42,190 nt of DNA from Prochloraceae cyanobacterium (GTDB lineage: Bacteria; Cyanobacteriota; Cyanobacteriia; Cyanobacteriales; JASJDA01), in NCBI GenBank assembly GCA_030065755.1, contig JASJDA010000051.1, positions 1-42,190 of the forward strand, written 5' to 3'. Every line of letters starts with the position of its first letter. The first letter of the stretch is position 1. This document shows, one piece after another, positions 3,804 through 37,233 of this stretch. A program made the translations under genes and the position numbers. The notes under the pieces were generated by a model. It saw only the letters and a list, made by a program, of their open reading frames with translations, did no database searches and had not been told where the DNA came from.

Positions 3804-5087
3804 GTGTTAGACCTCAAACAAATACGAGAAAATCCAACAGCTATCCAAGAACAACTAAATCGACGCAGTGCAGATCGATACGATATCAGTCCGATTTTAG
3901 AACTCGATCGCCAGCAAAGGGAATTAGAATCTATTCGTACCCAATTGCAAACTCGCAGCAACGAAATTGGAAAAGAGATCGGTCAAAAGATCAAAGGCGG
4001 TAGCGATCCTAAAGGCTCTGAAATTCAAGCCTTGAAAGCAGAAGGAAATGAAATTAAAACTAAACTAAGCGAATTTGAACCCCAGGAAAAAGAAATAAAA
4101 TCAAAAATTGAATCCCTTTTATTACAATTTCCTAACTTACCCAGCGAATCAACCCCGATCGGGAATAGTGAAGAAGAAAACATAGAAATTCGTCGTTGGG
4201 GAGAGGAATACTTACCGAAAAATCCTAATATTCTCCCTCACTGGGAAATTGGAGAAAAATTAGGCATATTTGACTTCGAGAGAGCGGTCAAAGTGGCTCG
4301 CAGCCGATTTGTGAGCCTAGTGGGGGCTGGTGCAGCTTTAGAAAGGGCATTAATTACTTTTATGCTCGATCGACAAATAGAAGCTGGATACACCGAAGTA
4401 ATTCCCCCCATACTCGTCAATACCCAAACTCTCACAGGAACGGGTCAATTACCCAAATTTGCCGAAGAAAGCTTCAAATGTCAAGAAGACGACCTCTGGC
4501 TAATTCCTACGGCTGAAGTTCCCCTCACCAATTTATACCGCGAAGAAATCCTCGAAGCCTCCTCACTTCCCATCAAACACTGCGCTTATACTCCCTGTTT
4601 TCGCAGAGAAGCAGGAAGCTATGGGAAAGACACGCGGGGAATAATTCGTTTGCACCAATTTAATAAAGTGGAGTTAGTCAAAATAGTGCATCCCGATACT
4701 TCCGAGGAGGAACATCAGTCTTTAGTCAAGGATGCAGAAGCAATATTGCAAGCCTTAAAATTACCCTATCGAGTAATAGAACTTTGTACCGGAGATATAG
4801 GCTTTAGTGCAGCAAAATGCTATGACATAGAAGTGTGGCTGCCTTCTTCTGGCAAATATCGGGAAATTTCAAGCTGTTCCAATTGTAAAGACTTCCAAGG
4901 GCGAAGGGCTAGTATTCGTTTCAAGGAAGCTGGGAAGAAAGGAACTAAATTAGTGCATACCCTTAACGGCTCCGGACTAGCTGTAGGTCGTACCATGTCA
5001 GCCATTCTCGAAAATTATCAACAAGAGGATGGAACAGTAAAAATTCCAGAGGTGTTGCAGCAGTATATGGGAAGGGAAGTGTTGTAA
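3804..5087 (+). CDS. serS: Serine--tRNA ligase
   Basis: Cytosolic class II aminoacyl-tRNA synthetase that charges tRNA-Ser (and tRNA-Sec where present). Residues about 25-110 form the long antiparallel coiled-coil tRNA-binding arm, rich in Glu, Lys and Gln. Motif 2 is visible around [25 protein letters not shown] and motif 3 as [18 protein letters not shown], together with the serine-specific TAEVPLTN segment. Length is about 427 aa, normal for the bacterial enzyme. I place the start at GTG 3804, because cyanobacterial SerS proteins begin [11 protein letters not shown]. An in-frame GTG four codons upstream (3792) is possible. No Shine-Dalgarno sequence decides between them. Confidence 0.95.
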
Positions 5088-5439
5088 GCAAAAATAATCG
5101 ATTTTGGCGAGACAATCTGGGAAAATTAATGACAGTTGCTGGTGGCTGCCAGATTAACAGTTGTTAGTGAACAGTTACCAGTTATCAGTTGTGAGTTAGA
5201 TCGAAAGTCCCCTACCTCTATAGGTAGAATGTCTCTCTCTTGGTTTAAATCCATGAGGGAGACCTCATAAGTGATAACTATTAACTGTTTTAATAACGAT
5301 CGCGATCGTCAATAGCACCATACTGTCAATTCTTTTCTGAAGAAACAGATTGCCAAACTTGTTTGGCAAAAATAGTTTACAGAGTTATTTCCTTAGTTGT
5401 TATTAAATCTAGATTATTGTGTCAATAGATGAAATTTAC
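5088..5439. other. Intergenic region with three stem-loops between serS and moxR
   Basis: This 350-bp gap has no convincing ORF. It holds three inverted repeats: CTACCT/AGGTAG at 5212-5227; an imperfect 13-bp stem at 5231-5263 (GTCTCTCTCTTGG against CCATGAGGGAGAC); and a perfect 9-bp stem with a 2-nt centre at 5350-5369 (TTGCCAAAC, TT, GTTTGGCAA). The first two lie after serS and may act in 3'-end formation, although neither has a clear T-tract. The third lies 70-90 bp before moxR and looks more like an operator or leader hairpin. The stretch 5158-5200 is made of degenerate CAGTTAxCAGTTA-type short repeats like those elsewhere in the window. Confidence 0.5.
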
Positions 5440-7804: not shown

Positions 7805-8989
7805 TTAGCGGTCTACCGACCCCATAATTACATCGACACTACCGAGAATAGGCATAATGTCGGCAACTTTTACCCCCTTAAGAATCTCAGGTAAAATTTG
7901 CAGGTTATTAAAATCAGCGGCGCGGATTTTCCAGCGCCAGGGGAAGACGTTGTCATTGCCAACGATAAAGATACCCAATTCTCCTTTACCGCTTTCTAGA
8001 CGGACGTAATGCTCGCCAGAAGGGATTTTAAAGGTGGGAGCAACCTTTTTAGCAACATACTGATAATCAAAGCCATTCCACTCTGATTTTTTGCCTTCCA
8101 GCATCCGCTTAGCTTCTAAGTTCTCGTAAGGACCGCCTGGAATTCCTTTGAGTGCCTGACGAATAATTTTAACAGACTCTCGCATTTCCCGAATGCGTAC
8201 TAGATAGCGGGCAAAACAGTCGCCAGCAGTTTCCCAATGGACTTCCCAGTCGAAGTCGTCGTAGCATTCGTAGTGGTCAACTTTACGCAAGTCCCACTTC
8301 ACCCCAGAACCGCGTAACATTGGGCCTGAAAGACCCCAATTAATAGCATCTTCGCGGCTGATGATACCTACTCCTTCGACTCGACGACGGAAAATAGGGT
8401 TGTTGGTAATTAATTTTTCGTATTCATCTACTTTGGGGTCGAAGTGATCGCAGAAGTCTTCGCACTTGTCTATCCAACCATAGGATAGATCTACTGATAC
8501 TCCGCCAATACGGAAATAGTTATTATTAATTAACCGACTCCCAGAGGCAGCTTCCCACAGGTCATAAATCATCTCCCGTTCGCGGAAAATGTAGAAAAAG
8601 GGAGTCTGCGCGCCTACGTCAGCTAGAAATGGGCCAAGCCACAATAGGTGGTTAGCAATGCGATTTAACTCGAGCATAATAACGCGGATGTATTGAGCGC
8701 GTTTTGGCACTTCAATATCCGCTAATTGTTCTGGCGCATTAACGGTAATTGCCTCATTGAACATCCCTGCAGCATAGTCCCAGCGACTGACGTAGGGGAC
8801 GTACATAACATTGGTACGGTTTTCGGCAATTTTTTCCATCCCTCGGTGAAGATAACCGATGACGGGTTCGCAGTCGATTACGTCTTCTCCATCAAGAGTT
8901 ACAATCAGACGCAAAACCCCGTGCATCGAGGGATGGTGAGGCCCCATGTTGAGAACCATGGGTTCGGTTCTAGTTTCTATCTTTGCCAT
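7805..8989 (-). CDS. ndhH: NAD(P)H-quinone oxidoreductase subunit H (NDH-1 49-kDa subunit)
   Basis: A 394-aa peripheral-arm subunit of the thylakoid NDH-1 complex, homologous to NuoD/49 kDa. With its partner subunits it lines the plastoquinone site and the N2 iron-sulfur cluster environment, and serves respiration and cyclic electron flow. Diagnostic blocks are the N-terminal [15 protein letters not shown], the segment [18 protein letters not shown], and the C-terminal [15 protein letters not shown]. Length matches cyanobacterial NdhH (394). The start ATG 8989 gives the family N-terminus [11 protein letters not shown]. It is a lone ndh gene here. The group II intron ends 126 bp upstream in the same orientation and separates the coding region from any promoter located beyond 11512. 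Confidence 0.97.
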
Positions 8990-9115: not shown

Positions 9116-11512
9116 GTCGGGTAGGTCGGGAACATTACTGTTCCTTTCCCCCCTCAGAACCGTGCGTGCTAGTTTCCAGGCACACGGCTCAAGCAAAATC
9201 ACTTCTTTTGGTAGTGTGTTTTATGGTGACAGTATTGGTGTAGCCATGTGAGGTTATTTACCTCGTCCTTTCCACCCTCACACTTGGGTTTTATATGGTG
9301 TAGGTGTAGTGGTTCATCATTGAATATAGACTCACCACAGACAGGGCATTTATAGTTCTGTTTTCTGGCTACTCTCTCTCGGATACTACCTAGTCTTTTG
9401 GCTTCTGATTGATTACATTTCTTGTTTCTTTTTTCCCAGTATTCTTTAAGTTTTGGGTCATCAGGCGAGTGCCTTTGTTTAACAATTGCGTGTCTTTCAA
9501 TCTTTATCCAACTAAACTTGATTGCGTATACTCCTGTTTCTTTGTCTCCAAAGACCCATTTGTCGTTCCTTGAGAGATTTAGTTTTCCCCAGTATCGCTG
9601 TTTCATCCATTTTTTATTTTTGTTAGGATGTTTTCGCTTGGCATATCTGACCTGTCTTTTGTAGAGGTAATCGTCTAATTCTCTAAATGCCATTGAGGTT
9701 ACAACTTTATTTAAATAATTAGCTTTTCCTCTGATGACAGGGTTTAGGGTTGTTACTAGCCTTCTGACTGGGTTTCCTATTTGATTTAGGAATATTTCTC
9801 GTAAATCTCTTTTGGTTTTCTTTAGGAATTCTTTACTCGGTTTTATGAGTAACTTGTAGCCAGTTTTTGTGTTATTAACCTTGTAATGCCTTATGTTAAA
9901 CCCTAAAAAGTCGAAACCATCTGTAAGATGTTTTATTCTGGTTTTTTCAGGAGATAATTGTAGACCTCTAGTTTTAAGCCAGTTGTTTATTTCAACTTGG
10001 GCAATTTCTGCATCTTCTTTGGTTTCACACATACAAATGAAATCATCTGCATATCTGACTAGTATTCTTTTTCCTATAGAATTTCCGTGGGAATTGTACT
10101 TTACTCCTATTGCTTTCTCCATGCCGTGGAGCGCTATATTGGCAAGTAGCGGACTTATGATGCCACCTTGTGGTGTTCCTGTTTCTTGGTTCTGGTAGAC
10201 GTTTTTATGAACGTATCCAGCTTTTAACCATAGATTTATTAATTTTCGTCCAGGAAAATTTCCTATGACTTCCATTAATTTATCCTGGTTTATGTTGTCG
10301 AAACACCCTTTTATATCAGCGTCTAATATCCATTTCTTGGTATTATTAGGTCGTGCTGATAGGTATATTTTCCCAATTGCATCATGAGTGCTTCTACCTG
10401 GGCGGAACCCATAGCTAGTGCCTTCAAATTGTGCTTCCCAGCATGGTTCTAGAGCGTTTTTGACGATTGCTTGTAAGCATCTGTCTTTTATTGTTGGTAT
10501 TCCCAGTGGACGCTTTTTTCCATTTGGTTTAGGTATGTATACACGTTTGACGGGTTTTGGTTTCCAGCTCTGGTTTTTAATTAGGTCTTCAACCATTTTT
10601 CCTCTAACTTGAGGGGTTTTTGCTAGAACCTTGTCCACTCCTGCTGTTTTGCGTCCTTTATTCTCTTGAGTGACTCTCCTAACGGATAGAGTCACGTTTG
10701 AGTAACTCCGTAGCAATAACTTTTGCAGGTTGCGAACTTTGCGCCAGTTACCTTCAGAAGTTGCCTTATAAATTCTTCGTCTCAGTCCCCTAACTATTCG
10801 ATTGGATTTTCTCCAGTCTATGGAGTGCCATTCGGTAGTCCTTTCGGTTACGTTTGCAGTATTTTGCATCTTAACTTTTCCCTTCAAGTTCGGTTCTTTT
10901 ACTCCGTAATTAAGGCTAGATTTCACCTGCTCAAGTCAGCACCCTTTCGGGTTGGGTATTTCCCTATCCACCCAGTTATAGAATTACTTCCTTTCCTGTT
11001 CCCTTTCGGGTAGTGGCGTTCGCTTTTTAAGCATCCTCTCTCCCCTTGGGAGTTCTGCTTTCCTTGCGGTTAGCTTACTTAAGGGTTCGACCGTTTCCTT
11101 AAGACCCAGTGGGAGTTATCCCGTTTCACACTTTCGAGATGTGACACCTTTAGTTTCCTGCTATACTCCTGTTAATTCGGGGGGGTCAGTAGCCTCTGAA
11201 ACTATAGTGAAGATAGTTTCATGTATTTTACTTGTCAAAACGAACAAGTTTTTACCCTTCCCTATCACCCTTTAATCATCGTGGGTGATTCGAGTATATA
11301 GAAGCCTCAACACAGGTTCACTTACGTTAAACATTGGTGTCTTACCCTAGCCTGATATATTGATAGATGATTTATCAAATATCTGACACTTAACCTTCTA
11401 GCTGTGAAACCACATCGTTACCAATGTTGCTCCTTCAGGCGGGTACAGTCTTGGCTACTAGACTGGAGTCTTTCTTAGGGACTCACTCAAAGAGTGCGAC
11501 CTCGGTTCGCAC
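9116..11512 (-). mobile_element. Group II intron (about 2.4 kb) with reverse transcriptase/maturase
   Basis: The retroelement is read on the minus strand. The 5' end is GTGCG at 11512 and the 3' end is CTACCCGAC at 9116, giving about 2397 nt. Domain V is the 34-nt hairpin at 9157-9190 (minus strand begins GAGCCGTG and ends CACGGTTC). Domain VI follows to the 3' end. The 5' boundary has independent support: the six exon bases just before it read AGTGAA (11513-11518), and a hairpin loop inside domain I (stem 11201-11205/11213-11217) displays TTCACT, an exact EBS1-IBS1 match. The ORF sits in domain IV, with its stop only 8 nt before domain V. All parts look intact, so splicing and mobility are plausible. 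It lies in the divergent gap between ndhH and the peptide-binding protein gene. Confidence 0.92.
9199..10926 (-). CDS. ltrA: Group II intron-encoded reverse transcriptase/maturase with HNH endonuclease
   Basis: A 575-aa multifunctional intron protein: it helps the intron RNA splice, copies it into DNA and nicks the target. The RT fingers/palm run from about residue 85 to 340, with the catalytic YADD at 292-295 in RYADDF, preceded by DADIKGCFDNI and GTPQGGIISPLLANI. The maturase (X) domain follows at about 390-470. An HNH domain closes the protein (CPVCG, then LHLHHIKP, then NLTWLHQYCHHKTH). No frameshift or stop is seen, so it should be active. The first ATG is 10926; an internal ATG at residue 20 (MQNTANVTERTTEW) could be the true start. 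Confidence 0.95.
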   Translation of the reverse strand: MKSSLNYGVKEPNLKGKVKMQNTANVTERTTEWHSIDWRKSNRIVRGLRRRIYKATSEGNWRKVRNLQKLLLRSYSNVTLSVRRVTQENKGRKTAGVDKVLAKTPQVRGKMVEDLIKNQSWKPKPVKRVYIPKPNGKKRPLGIPTIKDRCLQAIVKNALEPCWEAQFEGTSYGFRPGRSTHDAIGKIYLSARPNNTKKWILDADIKGCFDNINQDKLMEVIGNFPGRKLINLWLKAGYVHKNVYQNQETGTPQGGIISPLLANIALHGMEKAIGVKYNSHGNSIGKRILVRYADDFICMCETKEDAEIAQVEINNWLKTRGLQLSPEKTRIKHLTDGFDFLGFNIRHYKVNNTKTGYKLLIKPSKEFLKKTKRDLREIFLNQIGNPVRRLVTTLNPVIRGKANYLNKVVTSMAFRELDDYLYKRQVRYAKRKHPNKNKKWMKQRYWGKLNLSRNDKWVFGDKETGVYAIKFSWIKIERHAIVKQRHSPDDPKLKEYWEKRNKKCNQSEAKRLGSIRERVARKQNYKCPVCGESIFNDEPLHLHHIKPKCEGGKDEVNNLTWLHQYCHHKTHYQKK

Positions 11513-11693
11513 TTCACTTCTACAATTATATAAACTTAAGTATTTTCAGTCTGCATAGATTCGGTTTTTATTTCTCGAGCGATCGACTCTGGGACTTGGC
11601 TTAGTACTAATTCCTAAGCCCGTGGAATACCGTCCGCGAAAGCGCGATCGCCCACTTGTTGGCAAATTTTCAACCCATATTTCGATCGCTGCT

Positions 11694-13523
11694 ATGTTAT
11701 CAAATTTTTTTCGCGGTTTCTCAATTAATTCTCGCTGTTTGAGTCTAATTGTTACTCTATCTTGTGCATTAACCCTACCAGGTTGTAGCTTAAGTCAGCT
11801 TAGAGCCCAGCCATCTTCAAAGTCTCAATTAGTTTTAGCCATTCCTAACAACCCCGATACTTTCAACTATGGGATGGTTCGATCGCCCTACAATGTTATT
11901 CTCTACATCTACACTGGATTGCTCGAGCAAAATCGCTTTACGTTGGAGTTAGAACCTGCATTAGCTGAGTCTTGGTCTGTTTCTCCCGACAAGCGACGCA
12001 TAACCTTCACTCTAAGAGAAAATTTAAAGTGGTCGGACGGGGAACCTCTAACGGTTGATGACGTGATTTTTACCTATAGAGACATTTATCTCAACAAAAA
12101 AATTCCCACCATCTTCAGAAAAAATCTGATAGTTGACACCAAAGGAAGTTTACCGTCAGTAAAAAAATTAGATTCTCGAACAGTTGAATTTACTAGCCCC
12201 GAACCCTTTTCTCCACTGTTGATATATGTTGCCAGGTTGCCAATTTTGCCAGCTCATGCATTGCGATCTTCAACCTCCACTACTGATGCTAATGGCAATC
12301 TCAAGTTTCTTTCTACTTGGACAACCGAGACCAATCCGAAAAAAATTATTTCTAATGGTCCTTACCGTCTGGTCAGCTACACTCCTTCTGAGAGAGTAGT
12401 ATTGGAGAAAAATCCTTACTATTGGCGCAAAGACGATCTGGGGAAGCAAATGCCTTATATCGACAAAGTTGTCGTACAAATTATCTCTTCTAATGACAAC
12501 CAATTGCTCAGATTTCGTTCTGGAGAATTAGATAGCATAAGAGTCCCAGTTGAGGCATTTGAGTTGCTCAAAAGACAAGAAAAGCAAGGGAACTATACAC
12601 TTCACAATAGAGGGACAACTGCGGGAATTTGGTTTTTAGGTTTTAATCTCAATCGAGGTAGCAATTCTCAAGGGAAAGCTTTTGTCAATCCCATTAAATC
12701 TCGTTGGTTTAATACTTTAGCTTTTAGGCAAGCGATCGCCTATGCTATCGATAGAGAAAGTATGAAAAATAATATTTATCGAGGACTCGGAGAATTACAG
12801 TACTCTCCTCTTAGCGATCGCAGTGTTTACTATTTATCTCCAGAAGCTGGTTTAAAGGTTTACAATTACAATCCTCAAAAGGCTAAACAGCTATTACTCA
12901 AAGCAGGTTTTAATTACAATTCCAAAGGCGAACTATTAGACTGGGATGGAAATAGAGTCGAGTTTAATGTTTTAGTAAAATCTGAAGAAAAGTCTCGAAT
13001 AGATATGGCAGTTGCTGTTCAACAAGACTTGAGTAAAATTGGCATCAAAACTAATTTGCAGGTACTCAGTTTTAACACCGTACTGGTCAAGCTTCTCAGA
13101 AGTCGAGATTGGGATTCTTACGTAGGTTCATTTGATGGAGGTGCGCTCGAACCTCACGATATATTTGGGTTTTGGAGTTATAAAGGTTCATTTCATCTTT
13201 TCAATCAAGGAAAGCAGGGAAAAGAAAAAGAAATTGCAGGTTGGGAAGTATCTGAATGGGAGCAAAAAATTGATAAACTTTTCCTAAGTGGCGCTCAAAA
13301 ATTTACCGATCGCGATCGTCAGAATTTTTATAGAGAATTTCAACAAATTGTTGTCGAACAAGTACCTGTAATTTTCTTGGTCAATCCTTTGAAAGTCGAA
13401 GCAGTTCGGAATCGAGTTGGTAATGTAAAATTTTCTGCTGTTGGACTGGGATTATTTTCGAGTATGGAAGAGCTAAAAATTAAAGACAAGCAAGCAATAA
13501 ACAAAAAAGGCGAAGGAAATTAG
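11694..13523 (+). CDS. ABC transporter peptide-binding lipoprotein (SBP family 5, DppA/OppA-like)
   Basis: An extracytoplasmic solute-binding lipoprotein for an ABC importer of peptides or similar solutes. From ATG 11694 there is a clear lipoprotein signal: basic n-region, hydrophobic stretch and lipobox LPGC with Cys31 as the lipidated residue. The mature part (about 578 aa) is family 5 SBP, with the NPDTFNYGMV opening, LEPALAESWSVSPD, and FTLRENLKWSDGEPLTVDDVIFTYRD, which is the family signature. The frame stays open upstream to a GTG at 11622, but that extension looks non-coding and would bury the signal. No permease or ATPase gene adjoins it, so it must work with components coded elsewhere. 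It is divergent from ndhH across the group II intron. Confidence 0.9.
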   Translation: MLSNFFRGFSINSRCLSLIVTLSCALTLPGCSLSQLRAQPSSKSQLVLAIPNNPDTFNYGMVRSPYNVILYIYTGLLEQNRFTLELEPALAESWSVSPDKRRITFTLRENLKWSDGEPLTVDDVIFTYRDIYLNKKIPTIFRKNLIVDTKGSLPSVKKLDSRTVEFTSPEPFSPLLIYVARLPILPAHALRSSTSTTDANGNLKFLSTWTTETNPKKIISNGPYRLVSYTPSERVVLEKNPYYWRKDDLGKQMPYIDKVVVQIISSNDNQLLRFRSGELDSIRVPVEAFELLKRQEKQGNYTLHNRGTTAGIWFLGFNLNRGSNSQGKAFVNPIKSRWFNTLAFRQAIAYAIDRESMKNNIYRGLGELQYSPLSDRSVYYLSPEAGLKVYNYNPQKAKQLLLKAGFNYNSKGELLDWDGNRVEFNVLVKSEEKSRIDMAVAVQQDLSKIGIKTNLQVLSFNTVLVKLLRSRDWDSYVGSFDGGALEPHDIFGFWSYKGSFHLFNQGKQGKEKEIAGWEVSEWEQKIDKLFLSGAQKFTDRDRQNFYREFQQIVVEQVPVIFLVNPLKVEAVRNRVGNVKFSAVGLGLFSSMEELKIKDKQAINKKGEGN

Positions 13524-13661
13524 GGCACGATAATCTCAATTTCAACTCTCTTTACTCCGGTTTTCGATCGCTGGTATGAGTCCTTTAGATATCGCTAAAG
13601 AAGAATCGATACCATTGTTAGACAAGCAAAAAAGGGATTATTTTCTCTCCTGTGAAATTTG

Positions 13662-13772
13662 TAGATTGCCTCTTAACTAAGATTAGGTAATGTTTCTAGT
13701 TAAGTCTTTGCAACAACAAGGCGAGAAACCAACCATTAACTGTTGGTAACTCCTTGAGGCTCAGGCAATCTA
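13662..13772. other. Strongly folded 111-nt intergenic element (branched stem-loop)
   Basis: A perfect 10-bp outer stem pairs 13662-13671 (TAGATTGCCT) with 13763-13772 (AGGCAATCTA). Directly inside it, 13672-13679 (CTTAACTA) pairs with 13697-13704 (TAGTTAAG), 8 bp. A second arm has CAAGG (13717-13721) pairing with CCTTG (13752-13756), enclosing ACCAAC (13728-13733) against GTTGGT (13742-13747). Together these form a branched fold with two arms, between a convergent lipoprotein gene and a small minus-strand gene. No T-tract follows on either strand. It may be a small RNA, a structured 3' UTR or a repeat; I do not recognise a known RNA family. The remainder of the 13524-13805 gap shows only a short CTTTAG/CTAAAG hairpin at 13583-13600. 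Confidence 0.5.
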
Positions 13773-13805
13773 AAAAATTCAAAAAAATATAGAGTTGCAA
13801 AAAAT

Positions 13806-14156
13806 CTAATTCTGACAAATTTCAAAGGTATCTTTCTGAGCTTGTAAGTCTTTTTTGCTTTCGTTTGGAGAATTAATGAATTGTCCTAGTGAATTAGAAC
13901 TCATATGCAAATTGTTAGTAGATCGGGAAACTCGTGCTTGCAAACTAGGATCTATCTCTTGTTGAGCTGTCATACAGACTCCGAAATCATGAGAAAATTC
14001 ACCCAACAGCTCTAAACTATCGCTTTCTGCTAAGCTTGGATTTAACTTGTTGTTGGAATTAGTAGAAGCTCCAAACAAAAATGAAGAAAAACCAAAAGTC
14101 AAGACAAGGGCCGCACCAGATAAAACTGTGTATTTTACTATAGATTGTTTGTTCAT
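13806..14156 (-). CDS. Small secreted or membrane-anchored hypothetical protein
   Basis: A 116-aa protein with an N-terminal hydrophobic segment (about residues 9-30, VKYTVLSGAALVLTFGFSSFLFGA) preceded by MNKQSIVK, consistent with a signal peptide or anchor. The mature part is polar, rich in Ser, Asn and Gln, and has two cysteines (in FGVCMTAQ and at the C-terminal EICQN) that could form a disulfide after export. I do not recognise a family. It is single, convergent with the peptide-binding lipoprotein gene, and divergent from the pentapeptide-repeat gene. Its coding status rests on the signal-like N-terminus and the uninterrupted frame. Confidence 0.5.
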   Translation of the reverse strand: MNKQSIVKYTVLSGAALVLTFGFSSFLFGASTNSNNKLNPSLAESDSLELLGEFSHDFGVCMTAQQEIDPSLQARVSRSTNNLHMSSNSLGQFINSPNESKKDLQAQKDTFEICQN

Positions 14157-14581
14157 TCTTTTTATTGTCCGAAAAATTAAATTGGGATTGGGATAGGGTT
14201 GTTGAAAGAGGCCGTTTAGTCTTGAAACAAGTTAGAAGCTTCTTATTGTTGTGTTTTGAGTAACAACAATTTGATTTTAGCGGTATTTACTTAGTCCTTG
14301 TGCGATCGGTGTCAAAGAAAACACCGATCGATATTGGGGTAAATACTGAGTCAAACAAAATCTTCTCTCTGACTACACAAATAACATTAAGTACTTTTTC
14401 GAGACTTAACGTTACTACCACTAGTTTAATACTAATGTTAATAAAAAGTAGTATTTTTTAATATTGTCTTTAAAAAACGATCCAATTGGGATCTCTTCGT
14501 ACGAGAAAACACTTAGACGATAAGCCCGATCGTATATGTAGTTAATATAAAGTAATTACTCAAAAACCCTTGAATTATAAA
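14157..14581. promoter_or_regulatory. Divergent intergenic region with a two-tier stem-loop
   Basis: This 425-bp gap separates the minus-strand secreted protein gene from the pentapeptide-repeat gene and must contain both promoters. At 14281-14348 it holds nested inverted repeats. The outer stem is CGGTATTTAC (14281-14290) with GTAAATACTG (14339-14348), 10 pairs including one G-T. The inner stem is a perfect 10-bp CGATCGGTGT (14303-14312)/ACACCGATCG (14321-14330) with an 8-nt loop. The inner stem includes the common CGATCG sequence. No T-tract follows, so it is not an obvious terminator; a leader RNA or protein-binding site is possible. From 14390 the sequence becomes AT-rich, with no further recognisable site. 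Confidence 0.45.
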
Positions 14582-16622: not shown

Positions 16623-18176
16623 GTGGATGTTGCTGAATTAGTCAGAGTATCAATTATTCTCCTGCTCGTTGCCACCGTTGTAGCTTTACTTTCTCGCTGG
16701 CTGCGAGTACCGTACGTTGCGGGTTTAGTGATAGCGGGGTTAGCGATCGCCGAATTCTTGCCAGACCGATTCGGTCTGAGTGACTCTTTAATTTTAAATC
16801 TATTTCTGCCAATTTTAATATTCGAGGCAGCTATTAACACTGATATAAGTCGGTTGCGGAGCAATGTTAAGCCAATAGCCTTATTAGCAGGACCTGGAGT
16901 AGCGATCGCCTCTGGTGTAACAGCAATGCTCTTGAAATGGGGTCTCGGACTTAGTTGGACTTCCGCACTATTAGCTGGGGTAATTTTAGCAATTACAGAC
17001 ACAGTATCGGTAATTGCTGCATTCAAAGAAGTGGCAGTACCGTCGCGCCTTTCAACTATTGTAGAGGGAGAAAGTTTATTTAATGACGGTCTAGCGCTGG
17101 TTATATTTAGCCTAATTTTGCAAGTTCACCAAACAGGCTATCTCTCAGTTGCAGACGGATTTCAAGAATTCTTCGTAACGATCTTGGGAGGAAGCGTAGT
17201 AGGGCTGACTATTGGCTATTTAAGTACGGGTTTATTTGTCTTTGCCGACGAGCCTTTAAGCAGTATTTTACTAACCATAGGGGTAGCATTGGGAGCATTT
17301 CAACTGGGACAATTTTTGAGCGTTTCCGGTGTAGTCGCTGTGGTTGTAGCTGGGTTAATTGTAGGGAGTAAAGGGTTATCGAATCAAGTATCCCCATCGA
17401 CTAGATTAACTTTACTTAGCTTCTGGGAATCGATCGCTTTTGGGGTCAATAGCTTTATTTTTCTAATCGTCGGTCTAGAAGTTAAGCTGATTACCCTGTG
17501 GACTACTTTACCCGCCGTTTTGCTCGCGATTCTTGCCTACCAAGGGGGACGCATACTTTCTGTTTACCCTTTATTAGCTATGGTGCGCTGGTTCGATCGT
17601 CCAATTCCCTGGCGCTGGCAGCACGTATTATTTCTAGGCAATATTAAAGGGTCTCTTTCTATGGCGCTGGTACTCAGTTTACCCGCAACATTAAGCGATC
17701 GAGAACAACTAATTGCTATTGTTTTTGGCACAGTATTGCTGTCCCTTGTCGGACAGGGAGTAAGTTTACCTTGGCTGGTGAAACGTTTGAAGCTGTCTCG
17801 CCCTTCTCCATTTCGTCAGAAAACTGAAGGATTACAAGCCCAGTTAATCACAGCTAAGGCAGCACAAGACGAATTAGAAACCCTGCTCAAGTCAGGAGTA
17901 TTGCCAAAAGCAGTCTATGAAGAGATCCGATCGGCTTATCAGGTACAAATAGCTGGGGCAGAAAAAGCATTGCGACAATTATACAATCGTCGCTCCAATG
18001 AGTTCGATCCCAAAAAGGGCGATCTCTCAAAACTCGATGGGATTAAGCGCCGTTTGCTACTGGGAGAAAAAGCAGCATTAACCCAGGCGATACGGAAGGG
18101 AATTCTTTCAGAGGAAATTGTCAGAGACAAAATACAAGCCATTGACAAACAATTGCTTCAACTCAAAGACGAGTAG
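16623..18176 (+). CDS. CPA1-family Na+/H+ antiporter (NhaP/NhaS1-like)
   Basis: A 517-aa membrane antiporter exchanging Na+ (or K+/Ca2+) for protons. About 12 hydrophobic helices span residues 5-395. Core CPA1 motifs are visible: the TM4-like ITDTVSV (Asp126; most relatives have Pro after the Asp, here Thr), and VEGESLFNDGLALV with the ion-binding Asn154-Asp155 pair. A conserved Arg/Lys helix occurs near FLGNIKGSLSMAL, where many relatives have RG. The C-terminal 120 residues are cytosolic and strongly helical (QAQLITAKAAQDELETLLKS and onward), a likely regulatory tail as in cyanobacterial NhaP/NhaS1. The start is GTG 16623 (MDVAELVRV). It appears to be a single gene, followed by the polypurine/heptamer repeat. 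Confidence 0.9.
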   Translation: MDVAELVRVSIILLLVATVVALLSRWLRVPYVAGLVIAGLAIAEFLPDRFGLSDSLILNLFLPILIFEAAINTDISRLRSNVKPIALLAGPGVAIASGVTAMLLKWGLGLSWTSALLAGVILAITDTVSVIAAFKEVAVPSRLSTIVEGESLFNDGLALVIFSLILQVHQTGYLSVADGFQEFFVTILGGSVVGLTIGYLSTGLFVFADEPLSSILLTIGVALGAFQLGQFLSVSGVVAVVVAGLIVGSKGLSNQVSPSTRLTLLSFWESIAFGVNSFIFLIVGLEVKLITLWTTLPAVLLAILAYQGGRILSVYPLLAMVRWFDRPIPWRWQHVLFLGNIKGSLSMALVLSLPATLSDREQLIAIVFGTVLLSLVGQGVSLPWLVKRLKLSRPSPFRQKTEGLQAQLITAKAAQDELETLLKSGVLPKAVYEEIRSAYQVQIAGAEKALRQLYNRRSNEFDPKKGDLSKLDGIKRRLLLGEKAALTQAIRKGILSEEIVRDKIQAIDKQLLQLKDE

Positions 18177-18178
18177 AG

Positions 18179-18338
18179 GTGTGGGGAGAGGGGGAGAGGG
18201 GGAGAGGGGAGAGGGGGGAGTGTGGGAAGTGTGGGGAGAATAACAAACAGCTAACAGCTAACAGCCAACAGCTAACAGCTAACAGCCAACAGCCAACAGC
18301 CAACAGCAAATAGCCAACAGCAAATAGCAAACAATTTT
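18179..18338 (+). repeat. Composite repeat copy A: polypurine tract plus AACAGCY heptamers
   Basis: A GGGGAGAG-type polypurine tract (about 18180-18239) runs directly into about 13 degenerate heptamers (AACAGCT, AACAGCC, AATAGCC, AATAGCA) up to about 18335. It lies just after the antiporter stop. The same two-part unit recurs at 19732-19868 in the same orientation and at 22961-23109 inverted. Unit length, lack of spacers and degeneracy exclude a CRISPR array. It corresponds to the short tandemly repeated repetitive (STRR-like) sequences known from cyanobacterial gene gaps. Confidence 0.8.
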
Positions 18339-18453: not shown

Positions 18454-19725
18454 ATGGATAAAAGATTTGCGAAAATATTCAATTTAACTGAAGATGAAGC
18501 GATTGCTCTTCTCAAAACACCTTTAGACCAACTCAAGGATGAAACAGACCGCTATATTGCTGCTTCTCATCTGATGAACTTTCCCACCGAGCGATCGATT
18601 AATGCTCTAATTGAAGCAGTGCAAAACGACGACTCCCAACTGTACAATCGTATTGCCAGACGCAAAGCAGTAGAAAGTTTGGGGCGCTTGCATGCATCAG
18701 TAGCCTTACCAGTAATTCGGTCTTGTTTGATCGACGATGATTGTTACACGGTAGAAAACGCAGTTTGGGCAATTGGGGAGATCGGAACAAAAGACGAAGC
18801 AATTTTAGAACAAATTTCCCAATTACTAGAAAAACCAGGTCAAAGTTACCGAGTAATTATTCAAGTTCTTGCTAAACTAGACTATCAACCAGCTCTCGAT
18901 CGCATTAGAAAATTCATAGATTCTGATGACGAACCTATATCCAGTGCCGCGATCTCTACAGTTTGCCGTTTTACGGGAGACTATACTGGGATGGATAAAG
19001 TTGTTGCATTTTTAGAACATAGTAGTGTCAATGCAAGACGTGCGTGTATTCAAGATTTGATTGACGCTCGATATTACCAAGCCATACCTCAGATCTCTCG
19101 CTGTCCCGTTTCAGTGGTTTTTCGCCTGCGAGGAATTAAAATGTTAGCAGAGGACGGCATTCCAGCAGGTAAAATAACTTTTGCCGATATAGAACCAGCA
19201 ATCGAGCGAACTCTTTACGATCGCGCCGAAGAATTAGAATTGGTACACGAATACGACCTACCCCCTAAACTAGAATTTGCGATCGATGAGCTGTATCATA
19301 CGGACTTTGGAAGGTGTTATCTGGCAAGTAAAACTCTGCTAGAAATGTATTCTGAAGAAGCACCAGAGGCTTTGATGGCTACTTTTGCTAAAGAAGCACA
19401 TAACGATTATGGCGCTCACTATCACGTAGTTAAACTACTAGGTCAACTTAAATACGCTCCCGCTTACGACCTGTTGGTTGAAGCTTTGCATAATAAAGCG
19501 CCTCAGTTTCAAAAATCCCGCGCAGCAGCAGCGATCGCTTTGGCTAATTTAGGCGATCGAAGAGCAATTTCTGAAATTAAGGAAGGGTTAAAAGCCAAAA
19601 ATTGGGACTTAAAATATGCTTGTTTGCTAGCTTTAGAACAGTTAGGTGATAATTCGGGCAAAAATATAGTTGCTGAGGACTCGGATTTGCTAGTTAAAGC
19701 TAAGATAACTAGTCGATCGAAGTAA
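18454..19725 (+). CDS. HEAT-repeat protein of the E/F-type phycobilin lyase clan (CpeY/CpcE-like)
   Basis: A protein of about 423 aa composed of PBS-lyase-type HEAT repeats, for example SQLYNRIARRKAVESLGRLH, YTVENAVWAIGEIGTKDEA and KSRAAAAIALANLGDRRAISE. The size and sequence fit the large E/F-clan members related to CpeY and the phycocyanin lyase-related HEAT proteins, which attach or remove bilins on phycobiliproteins in the cytosol. Whether this one is a lyase, and its bilin and subunit specificity, cannot be read from the sequence; no phycobiliprotein gene is in the window. Start ATG 18454 (MDKRFAKIFNLTEDEA); an upstream in-frame TTG at 18442 is less likely. It sits between two copies of the composite repeat. 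Confidence 0.78.
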   Translation: MDKRFAKIFNLTEDEAIALLKTPLDQLKDETDRYIAASHLMNFPTERSINALIEAVQNDDSQLYNRIARRKAVESLGRLHASVALPVIRSCLIDDDCYTVENAVWAIGEIGTKDEAILEQISQLLEKPGQSYRVIIQVLAKLDYQPALDRIRKFIDSDDEPISSAAISTVCRFTGDYTGMDKVVAFLEHSSVNARRACIQDLIDARYYQAIPQISRCPVSVVFRLRGIKMLAEDGIPAGKITFADIEPAIERTLYDRAEELELVHEYDLPPKLEFAIDELYHTDFGRCYLASKTLLEMYSEEAPEALMATFAKEAHNDYGAHYHVVKLLGQLKYAPAYDLLVEALHNKAPQFQKSRAAAAIALANLGDRRAISEIKEGLKAKNWDLKYACLLALEQLGDNSGKNIVAEDSDLLVKAKITSRSK

Positions 19726-19731
19726 GAAGAG

Positions 19732-19868
19732 GGGTAGAGAGGGAGAGAGGGAGAGGGGGAGAGGGGGAGGTCAGAGGTCAGAGGTCAGCCAATAGCTAAC
19801 AGCTAACAGCCAACAGCCAATAACCAACAGCCAATAGCAAACAGCCAACAGCCAACAGCAAATAGCTA
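19732..19868 (+). repeat. Composite repeat copy B, abutting the aroE start
   Basis: A polypurine GAGAGGG tract (19732-19769) is followed by GGTCAGA triplicate and AACAGCY/AATAGCY heptamers up to about 19868. This is the same order and orientation as copy A. Only three bases separate the last heptamer from the aroE ATG, so the repeat forms the whole proximal 5' region of aroE, and no Shine-Dalgarno sequence is visible there. Confidence 0.8.
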
Positions 19869-19871
19869 AAA

Positions 19872-20747
19872 ATGCAACTTATTACAGGTAAAACGAAACT
19901 ACTAGGGGTAATTGGGGATCCGGTGGAGCATTCTTTCTCGCCAGTGATGCACAATGCCGCGATCGCTGAGTTAAATTTAGATTATGTTTATTTGCCTCTT
20001 CCAGTAAAAGCCAAGGATTTGGAAAGGGCGATCGCTGGTTTTGAAGCAATTGGCTTAGTGGGTTTTAGTGTTACTATTCCCCACAAACAGACTATTTTGC
20101 CCCTACTTTCGGAGATTGCTCCTAACGCTGAGTTGGTGGGTGCTGTAAATACTGTTTGGCGTACAGAAAGGGGTTGGAAGGGTACGAACACCGATGTAGA
20201 AGGATTTCTCGCTCCCTTGAGAACTACGTTACGATTGCGAGACTGGAGTCAAGTTATTCCAGTTATTCTAGGTAATGGTGGTGCAGCCAGGGCGGTTGTT
20301 GCTGGTTTGCTGCGACTTGGATGCTCGAAAATTCATGTTGTCGGACGCGATCGAGATAAGTTAGACCTTTTTAAACAAAATTGGGCTGATTCGTACTTAG
20401 AACTGGATTTAAAGGTTCATATATGGTCGGAATTATCGGGATTGGTATCTGAAACAAATTTGTTAGTAAACACCACCCCTGTGGGGATGTATCCTTTCGT
20501 AGATAAGTCTCCTGTAGAAGAGGAATTGATGGAAAAATTGCCAAAGGGGGCGATCGTCTACGACCTAATTTATAATCCCAGACCTACTGAGTTTTTGAAA
20601 ATAGGAGAGAAAGTAGGAGCGATCGCTATTGACGGGTTAGAAATGTTAGTCCAACAAGGTGCAGCCGCTTTACAAATTTGGTTACAGCAACCAGTACCAG
20701 TTGATGTTATGAGGAGATCGCTCCTAGAACATTTAGGATTAAATTGA
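19872..20747 (+). CDS. aroE: Shikimate dehydrogenase (NADP+)
   Basis: A 291-aa enzyme of the shikimate pathway reducing 3-dehydroshikimate to shikimate with NADPH, in the cytosol. The substrate-binding N-terminal domain shows GDPVEHSFSPVMHNAAI and FSVTIPHKQTI, with the catalytic Lys in the latter, and GTNTDVEGF with the catalytic Asp. The Rossmann domain has the glycine-rich ILGNGGAARAVVAGL and the basic VVGRDRDKLD consistent with NADP preference. The C-terminal IDGLEMLVQQGAAALQIW is conserved. Length is normal (270-295). It starts at ATG 19872 directly after the heptamer repeat, which leaves promoter and ribosome site unresolved. It ends at a strong hairpin shared with dnaK. Confidence 0.95.
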   Translation: MQLITGKTKLLGVIGDPVEHSFSPVMHNAAIAELNLDYVYLPLPVKAKDLERAIAGFEAIGLVGFSVTIPHKQTILPLLSEIAPNAELVGAVNTVWRTERGWKGTNTDVEGFLAPLRTTLRLRDWSQVIPVILGNGGAARAVVAGLLRLGCSKIHVVGRDRDKLDLFKQNWADSYLELDLKVHIWSELSGLVSETNLLVNTTPVGMYPFVDKSPVEEELMEKLPKGAIVYDLIYNPRPTEFLKIGEKVGAIAIDGLEMLVQQGAAALQIWLQQPVPVDVMRRSLLEHLGLN

Positions 20748-22850: not shown

Positions 22851-22960
22851 ACATATATCTTTATCTATACCTATACTGCAAGTGGTTGATATCTCGGAGG
22901 TAGTGTAGTTTTCCGAACCTTTTAGGACGGATAAGACGAGTTTATCTTTGCCGATCGCTG

Positions 22961-23109
22961 ATTGCTATTGGCTATTGGCTATTTGCTGTTAGTTGTTTGC
23001 TGTTGGCTGTTGGCTATTTGCTGTTGGCTGTTGGCTCTTTGTTATTCTCCCCATCTCCCCGTCTCCCCATCTCCCCCTCTCCCCCTCTCCCCCTCTCCCC
23101 ACACTCCCC
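22961..23109 (-). repeat. Composite repeat copy C, inverted orientation
   Basis: Read on the plus strand, TTGCTAT/TGGCTAT/TTGCTGT/TGGCTGT heptamers (about 22961-23045) are followed by a polypyrimidine CTCCCCATCTCCCC tract (about 23046-23109). This is the reverse complement of copies A and B with the same part order. It lies upstream of dnaK and downstream of the DUF427 gene. Confidence 0.78.
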
Positions 23110-37029: not shown

Positions 37030-37233
37030 CTATTCCCTATTCCCTATTCCCTATTCCCTATTCCCTATTCCCTATTCCCTACTCCCTACTCCCTATTCCC
37101 TACTCCCTACTCCCTACTCCCTATTCCCTATTCCCTACTCCCTATTCCCTACTCCCTACTCCCTATTCCCTATTCCCTATTCCCTACTCCCTACTCCCTA
37201 TTCCCTATTCCCTATTCCCTATTCCCTATTCCC
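37030..37233. repeat. About 29 copies of heptamer CTATTCC / CTACTCC in tandem
   Basis: An uninterrupted array of the 7-bp unit CCCTATT or CCCTACT, about 204 bp (29 units), interspersed in irregular order. It occupies the middle of the 36915-37360 gap between the flavin reductase start and the carotenoid oxygenase stop. No spacers occur, so it is not a CRISPR array. It resembles the heptanucleotide STRR loci of cyanobacteria, but with a unit distinct from the AACAGCY repeats elsewhere in this window. Copy number may vary by slippage. The flanking AT-rich sequence has no gene. Confidence 0.92.

Follow-up and report, generated by a model that had tools for sequence, protein, structure and literature searches.

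What is the branched stem-loop of 111 nt that lies between two convergent genes at positions 13662-13772 of the window, the 42,190-nt stretch of Prochloraceae cyanobacterium DNA analysed here? The window corresponds to one complete contig out of the 455 that make up an 8.46-Mb draft genome (96.56% complete). A small RNA, a 3' UTR stabiliser and a palindromic mobile repeat had been put forward as candidates by a first, sequence-only reading. The explanation favoured below, with a probability of about 0.45, is a single-copy, probably decayed, MITE-like palindromic DNA element in a tolerant convergent gap. By itself the element is of little weight, being one unique palindrome in an intergenic gap.

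A perfect 10-bp outer stem (13662-13671/13763-13772, 10/10 pairs, arms 91 nt apart) encloses two hairpin arms. Arm 1 (13672-13704) has an 8-bp stem, CTTAACTA/TAGTTAAG (13672-13679/13697-13704, 8/8 pairs), closed by a 17-nt loop. Arm 2 (13717-13756) is interrupted and carries 5, 2 and 6 bp (13717-13721/13752-13756, 13724-13725/13750-13751 and 13728-13733/13742-13747, respectively). The sequence-only reading had described the outer stem, the 8-bp arm and the two-part second arm correctly, but the structure is longer than it noted: both arms lie within an imperfect palindrome of 129 bp (13653-13781) bounded by a 19-nt terminal inverted repeat with 17/19 positions paired (13653-13671/13763-13781), which is retained when a longer minus-strand stretch is folded. 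All 31 main pairs of 13662-13772 are Watson-Crick and G-U pairs are absent, so that the stem-loop can form on either strand; stem-loop, arms and whole palindrome are accordingly given as strand-neutral. The G+C content of the element is moderate (39%).

The flanking genes are convergent, as first stated, and leave an intergenic gap of 282 nt. The plus-strand gene (11622-13523) codes for a family 5 extracellular solute-binding protein (SBP_bac_5, Pfam PF00496) and its stop lies 138 nt before the 10-bp stem. Its 14 named relatives are all from cyanobacteria. Inspection by eye of 24 loci downstream of the orthologous gene in other genomes found unrelated palindromes or heptamer arrays (e.g. L017/L018, L025, L056), so that the site seems to tolerate insertions. 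The minus-strand gene (13806-14156) codes for a protein of 116 amino acids with a signal-like amino terminus (by eye), its stop being 33 nt before the 10-bp stem on that strand. This protein matches no Pfam family and nothing in 59 relatives; its own genome holds four weak matches (E 3e-5 to 1e-3), one of them the amino-terminal region of an alpha carbonic anhydrase, the eukaryotic type (L012, Pfam PF00194). On the strength of that match the small proteins may be exported relatives of the carbonic anhydrase amino terminus, sharing an L.GE.SPDF..C-like motif (by eye). A stem stronger than that of the element, GATCGGTGT..ACACCGATC, lies at window positions 14225-14430, ahead of the 116-aa gene, within a larger GGTATTTAC/GTAAATAC stem.

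A scan of 13400-14300 gave 0 terminator-like sites on either strand and two promoter-like sites against 2.2 expected from shuffles, i.e. no excess; no T-tract follows the stem-loop, as had been noted from the outset. The longest stop-to-stop frames overlapping the gap reach only 48-49 aa, none of note, and no transposase gene lies inside 13653-13781. ARAGORN found no tRNA or tmRNA in the window. The element matches no family of Rfam 15 at the gathering cut-off, in agreement with the first impression that no known RNA family is involved, and the sole window match is a group II intron elsewhere. A permissive threshold returned three matches far below cut-off, two overlapping the element (14.1 vs 100 and 12.5 vs 70 bits) and one outside it (22.4 vs 60 bits). 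A plasmid search gave two short matches, both outside the element, and a phage search gave none.

RNA folding, proposed beforehand as a check, bears out the structure. Positions 13662-13772 have a minimum free energy of -31.6 on the plus strand (z -3.08, 2/200 dinucleotide shuffles equally good) and of -35.6 on the minus strand (z -4.40, 0/200), while 13653-13781 folded as single-stranded DNA yields z -5.12 (0/200 shuffles as good). The statement that such a fold is unlikely in random intergenic sequence holds against shuffles but is overstated for this genome, where branched folds are common enough to demand caution: the 42-kb window has 734 of them in a loose scan that counts overlapping folds, both strands and coding DNA, and a 439-kb sample with 158 intergenic gaps has 33 in which the fold is more extreme. 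The fold energy of the element is unexceptional at 5th of 23 convergent gaps and 34th of the 158 intergenic gaps; among 2,104 windows of the contig its GC-adjusted rank is 33rd on the plus and 10th on the minus strand.

BLAST, the stem pattern and a covariance model all find the element in a single copy in the 8.46-Mb genome. The next-best BLAST match is 23 nt long (E 0.014) and matches touching the right arm span 15-27 nt at E 0.014 or worse; own-genome matches to the arms, which fall in that same range (15-27 nt, E >=0.014), revealed no insertion sequence whose ends resemble them. The covariance model, R1, is weak, being built from one sequence, and absences by it are limited accordingly. 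At E <= 10 it recovered only the element itself in its own genome, and a direct search of 1.03 Mb of that genome gave no second copy. Applied to 35 loci, R1 also returned the reverse strand of the element (13.8 bits); 12.3-bit matches adjoining the orthologous gene in L017/L018 (E 3.5) are heptamer palindromes and were set aside.

Outside this genome, no DNA match to the element was found in 59 relatives and no R1 match in 99 other genomes (at most 38 candidates scored per genome, stricter filters). Among 388 genomes of the order, its own included, R1 found the element alone (at most nine candidates per genome, stricter filters). A DNA search of the same 388, with only two first-look candidates scored per genome, gave matches at E <= 0.01 in 49, i.e. 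48 others. These are short pieces, at most 64 nt among the matches listed, and 32 of the 54 listed non-self matches fall in query positions 235-282, the right arm plus its A-rich flank. The whole element is absent from all nine non-self loci read out of these 54. Locus L111 (E 3e-6) holds the right arm and flank (45 columns, 87%), L112 is 76% identical to 13724-13787 (inner arm 2 and right arm), and 32 nt of arm 1 recur at 88% in L114 and L116, both from one genus. Neither the DNA search nor the covariance model, with few candidates scored per genome, found a homologue of the whole element in the order's 387 other genomes. No conservation, the test first suggested, was found, but the relatives searched are too distant to be informative: for the flanking solute-binding protein, the nearest orthologues reach 61-62% identity.

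Work on the element exposed the crowding of its genome with long inverted repeats. In 1,030,628 bases there are 37 inverted repeats with at least 17/19 pairs and a span of at most 181, against 1, 1, 1, 2 and 3 in Markov-1 resamples; this own-genome sample is non-random, its contigs being those hit by earlier matches and those with the lowest contig numbers. For 24 of the 37, blastn (E <= 1e-4, length 35 nt or more) detects one or more additional copies within the 1.03 Mb; the other 13, the element among them, are singletons. Five of these 13 are of the weakest accepted grade, 17/19, which is that of the element, so that chance keeps some probability as its origin.

The window itself holds a multicopy branched palindrome at 5165-5295, between ORFs ending at 5087 and starting at 5419. 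It occurs at least 40 times in the genome, in full or in part, and its fold has two strong hairpins and a weak one inside an outer stem. The outer stem consists of CAGTTAT/ATAACTG heptamers whose number varies among copies; TAACTGA heptamer repeats are known in cyanobacteria (available part of PMC4679880). The family resembles the element in its size (~120-130 nt), in having an outer stem around hairpins and in the intergenic position of its window copy. It differs in being multicopy and in its heptamer-built stem, and shares no sequence likeness by eye. A fold selected at the RNA level was considered for this family and found unsupported, with two-sided change in one of 18 consensus pairs (19 copies).

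These observations favour the MITE-like reading of the element, because inverted repeats of its grade are in such excess and mostly multicopy (24/37), because the window includes a branched palindrome of comparable size that is present in many copies, and because the element has no Rfam match at cut-off and occupies a site that tolerates insertions. The strand-neutral Watson-Crick stems, together with the lack of a terminator-like site and of a coding frame of note, fit a palindrome at the DNA level. Its origin would be like that of the other long-inverted-repeat elements of the genome: either a transposase acting in trans would have brought a small element bounded by terminal inverted repeats into the gap, or replication slippage would have made a palindrome grow there. 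The element would now be inert, and read-through transcription from either side would produce an RNA with a branched hairpin that might passively slow 3' exonucleases.

MITE-type elements are described as short, AT-rich, non-coding and intergenic, with terminal inverted repeats and a stable stem-loop if transcribed (available part of the MITE review PMC10969869). The element shares these features with Nezha, an element named in the reference list of that review, but is single-copy, with no target-site duplication seen and no parent insertion sequence found. Terminal inverted repeats are present (17/19) and an internal transposase gene is lacking, as in MITEs, where several genomic copies would be expected and one was found. 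Nor does a target-site duplication abut 13653/13781, where the flanks differ by eye; only a trivial TA adjoins the inner 8 bp (by eye), and duplications can decay. As for the possible ends of a parent transposon, the arm matches elsewhere in the genome are of 15-27 nt (E 0.014 or worse). One copy in 8.46 Mb, the missing duplication and the 17/19 grade, at which resamples give matches too, all speak against the MITE-like reading; on copy number and target duplication the element is not classed as a MITE. The proposal of a palindromic mobile repeat fits the repeat-rich character of the genome but loses weight for want of a second copy. ERIC and BIME are extragenic palindromes of REP-like type, and the element is likewise an extragenic palindrome; REP, BIME and ERIC are defined as multicopy, while the element is unique. 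Roles in termination and mRNA stabilisation were proposed for REP-type palindromes (available part of PMC3733652).

A doubtful though serious alternative is a functional 3'-end hairpin, which would stabilise the mRNA as part of its 3' UTR, or mark a U-less transcript end, for the 116-aa gene on the minus strand and perhaps for the solute-binding gene too. The distance from the stop codon to the element is 33 nt for the minus-strand gene and 138 nt for the plus-strand gene, and the fold is better on the minus strand (z -4.4). No Rho protein scores above the family cut-off in this 96.56% complete genome (four weak matches, best 33.6 vs 509 bits, in a search where eight of 14 control genomes pass), in line with a report of cyanobacteria without Rho (PMC13289151, as far as the available part goes), which makes a structural 3' end conceivable. 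Against such a function stand the lack of a terminator-like site on either strand and the distribution of strong folds, which are not special to convergent gaps: by crude gene calls (ORFs of at least 100 aa), extreme folds occur in 0.26 of 23 convergent, 0.28 of 97 tandem and 0.16 of 38 divergent gaps, and in 0.03 of 350 coding controls. In Synechococcus elongatus, non-canonical 3' ends are reported to be broadly without strong structure (available part of PMC13289151), and conservation in support of a 3' UTR stabiliser was found in none of the 387 other genomes of the order. Like an intrinsic (Rho-independent) terminator, the element is a hairpin between convergent genes; it differs by its branching, its moderate G+C and the absence of a T-tract, and no G+C-rich hairpin followed by a T-run was found in 13400-14300. 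Among four paralogues of the 116-aa gene, two are followed by strong folds (-40.5 and -36.8), one of these folds being a 5165-family copy (L010, also L109); no downstream element is common to all four.

Rather unlikely, though a serious rival, is chance: the element would be a fortuitous inverted repeat, noticed for being the most conspicuous fold in 42 kb. Perfect 10-bp inverted repeats (span 70-170) number 91 in 439,190 bases, six of them in the window, against 58, 44, 59, 50 and 44 in Markov-1 resamples, and the energy rank of the element is modest. A definition fitted afterwards to the element (10-bp stem with two hairpins) retrieved only the element in 439 kb and 0, 0, 0, 0 and 1 cases in resamples, so that even this was matched in one of five. 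At the 17/19 grade, 1-3 inverted repeats arise in resamples of 1.03 Mb. The same figures weigh against chance, as about 1.6 chance cases of the 17/19 outer repeat per 1.03 Mb, with the inner arms uncounted, would put about 0.07 in a stretch of 42 kb, and 0/200 minus-strand shuffles fold as well (z -4.4). With a span of at most 131 and arms of low complexity excluded, seven inverted repeats of at least 17/19 occur in 439 kb vs 0, 0, 0, 0, 0, 1, 1, 0, 0 and 0 in Markov-1 resamples.

It is very improbable that the element is a lineage-specific branched 3' element common to the two convergent mRNAs, a bidirectional hairpin without U-tract that would set transcript ends in a Rho-less cyanobacterium. 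Least credible is a lineage-specific trans-acting small RNA: its compact branched fold, stronger on the minus strand, is set against the lack of an Rfam match at cut-off, of a terminator-like site, of promoter-like sites beyond the 2.2 expected and of any whole-element homologue in the 387 other genomes, a want of conservation that leaves this first candidate unsupported.

Among the repeats exposed by this work, one palindrome family is more unusual than the element, its 19-bp stems differing between copies on both arms together. Its ~80-nt members, of form TTTTTA...(19-bp stem)...TAAAAA, number 15 by regular expression in 1.03 Mb and 16 by eye, and include L140:5196-5278, L065:3324-3405, L135:5168-5250, L142:4675-4756, L158:6139-6218 and 10 more; no copy was picked up in the window, nor was one seen in loci of other genomes totalling 259,770 bases. 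The 15 members have 285 terminal pair cells, of which 282 are Watson-Crick and one is G-T. Selection of members for at least 17/19 pairs misses broken stems and partly builds in this high pairing, but not the pair variety: at least two Watson-Crick pair types occur at 14 of the 19 stem positions. The flanks are alike in 13 compared members (about ACAATGA.TTCA / TAAA.ACATCTCTCG), which means that the repeat unit exceeds the stem. Rfam gave no match on three loci, one of which (L140) carries a member. Arms that diverge among copies yet stay self-complementary suggest hairpin selection or arm-to-arm copying.

Other repeats accompany these families. A multicopy palindrome of 130-150 nt (L139:3529-3670, L154:19631-19782) has an outer stem that looks built of heptamer-like GAAGTCA, and a second one of the same length (L127:17404-17539, L154:1817-1958, L158:1568-1701) has one that looks built of heptamer-like GGGAACA. 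Two different single-copy 19/19 inverted repeats lie 7 nt apart at L161:7963-8043 and 8051-8153. The window also carries tandem heptamer arrays of CTATTCC and AACAGCC types (37030-37233, 18166-18338, 19725-19883 and 22949-23048). The group II intron occupies 9116-10926 on the minus strand, with the RF00029 match at 9116-9192 and an intron-encoded reverse transcriptase-maturase with an HNH domain at 9199-10926.
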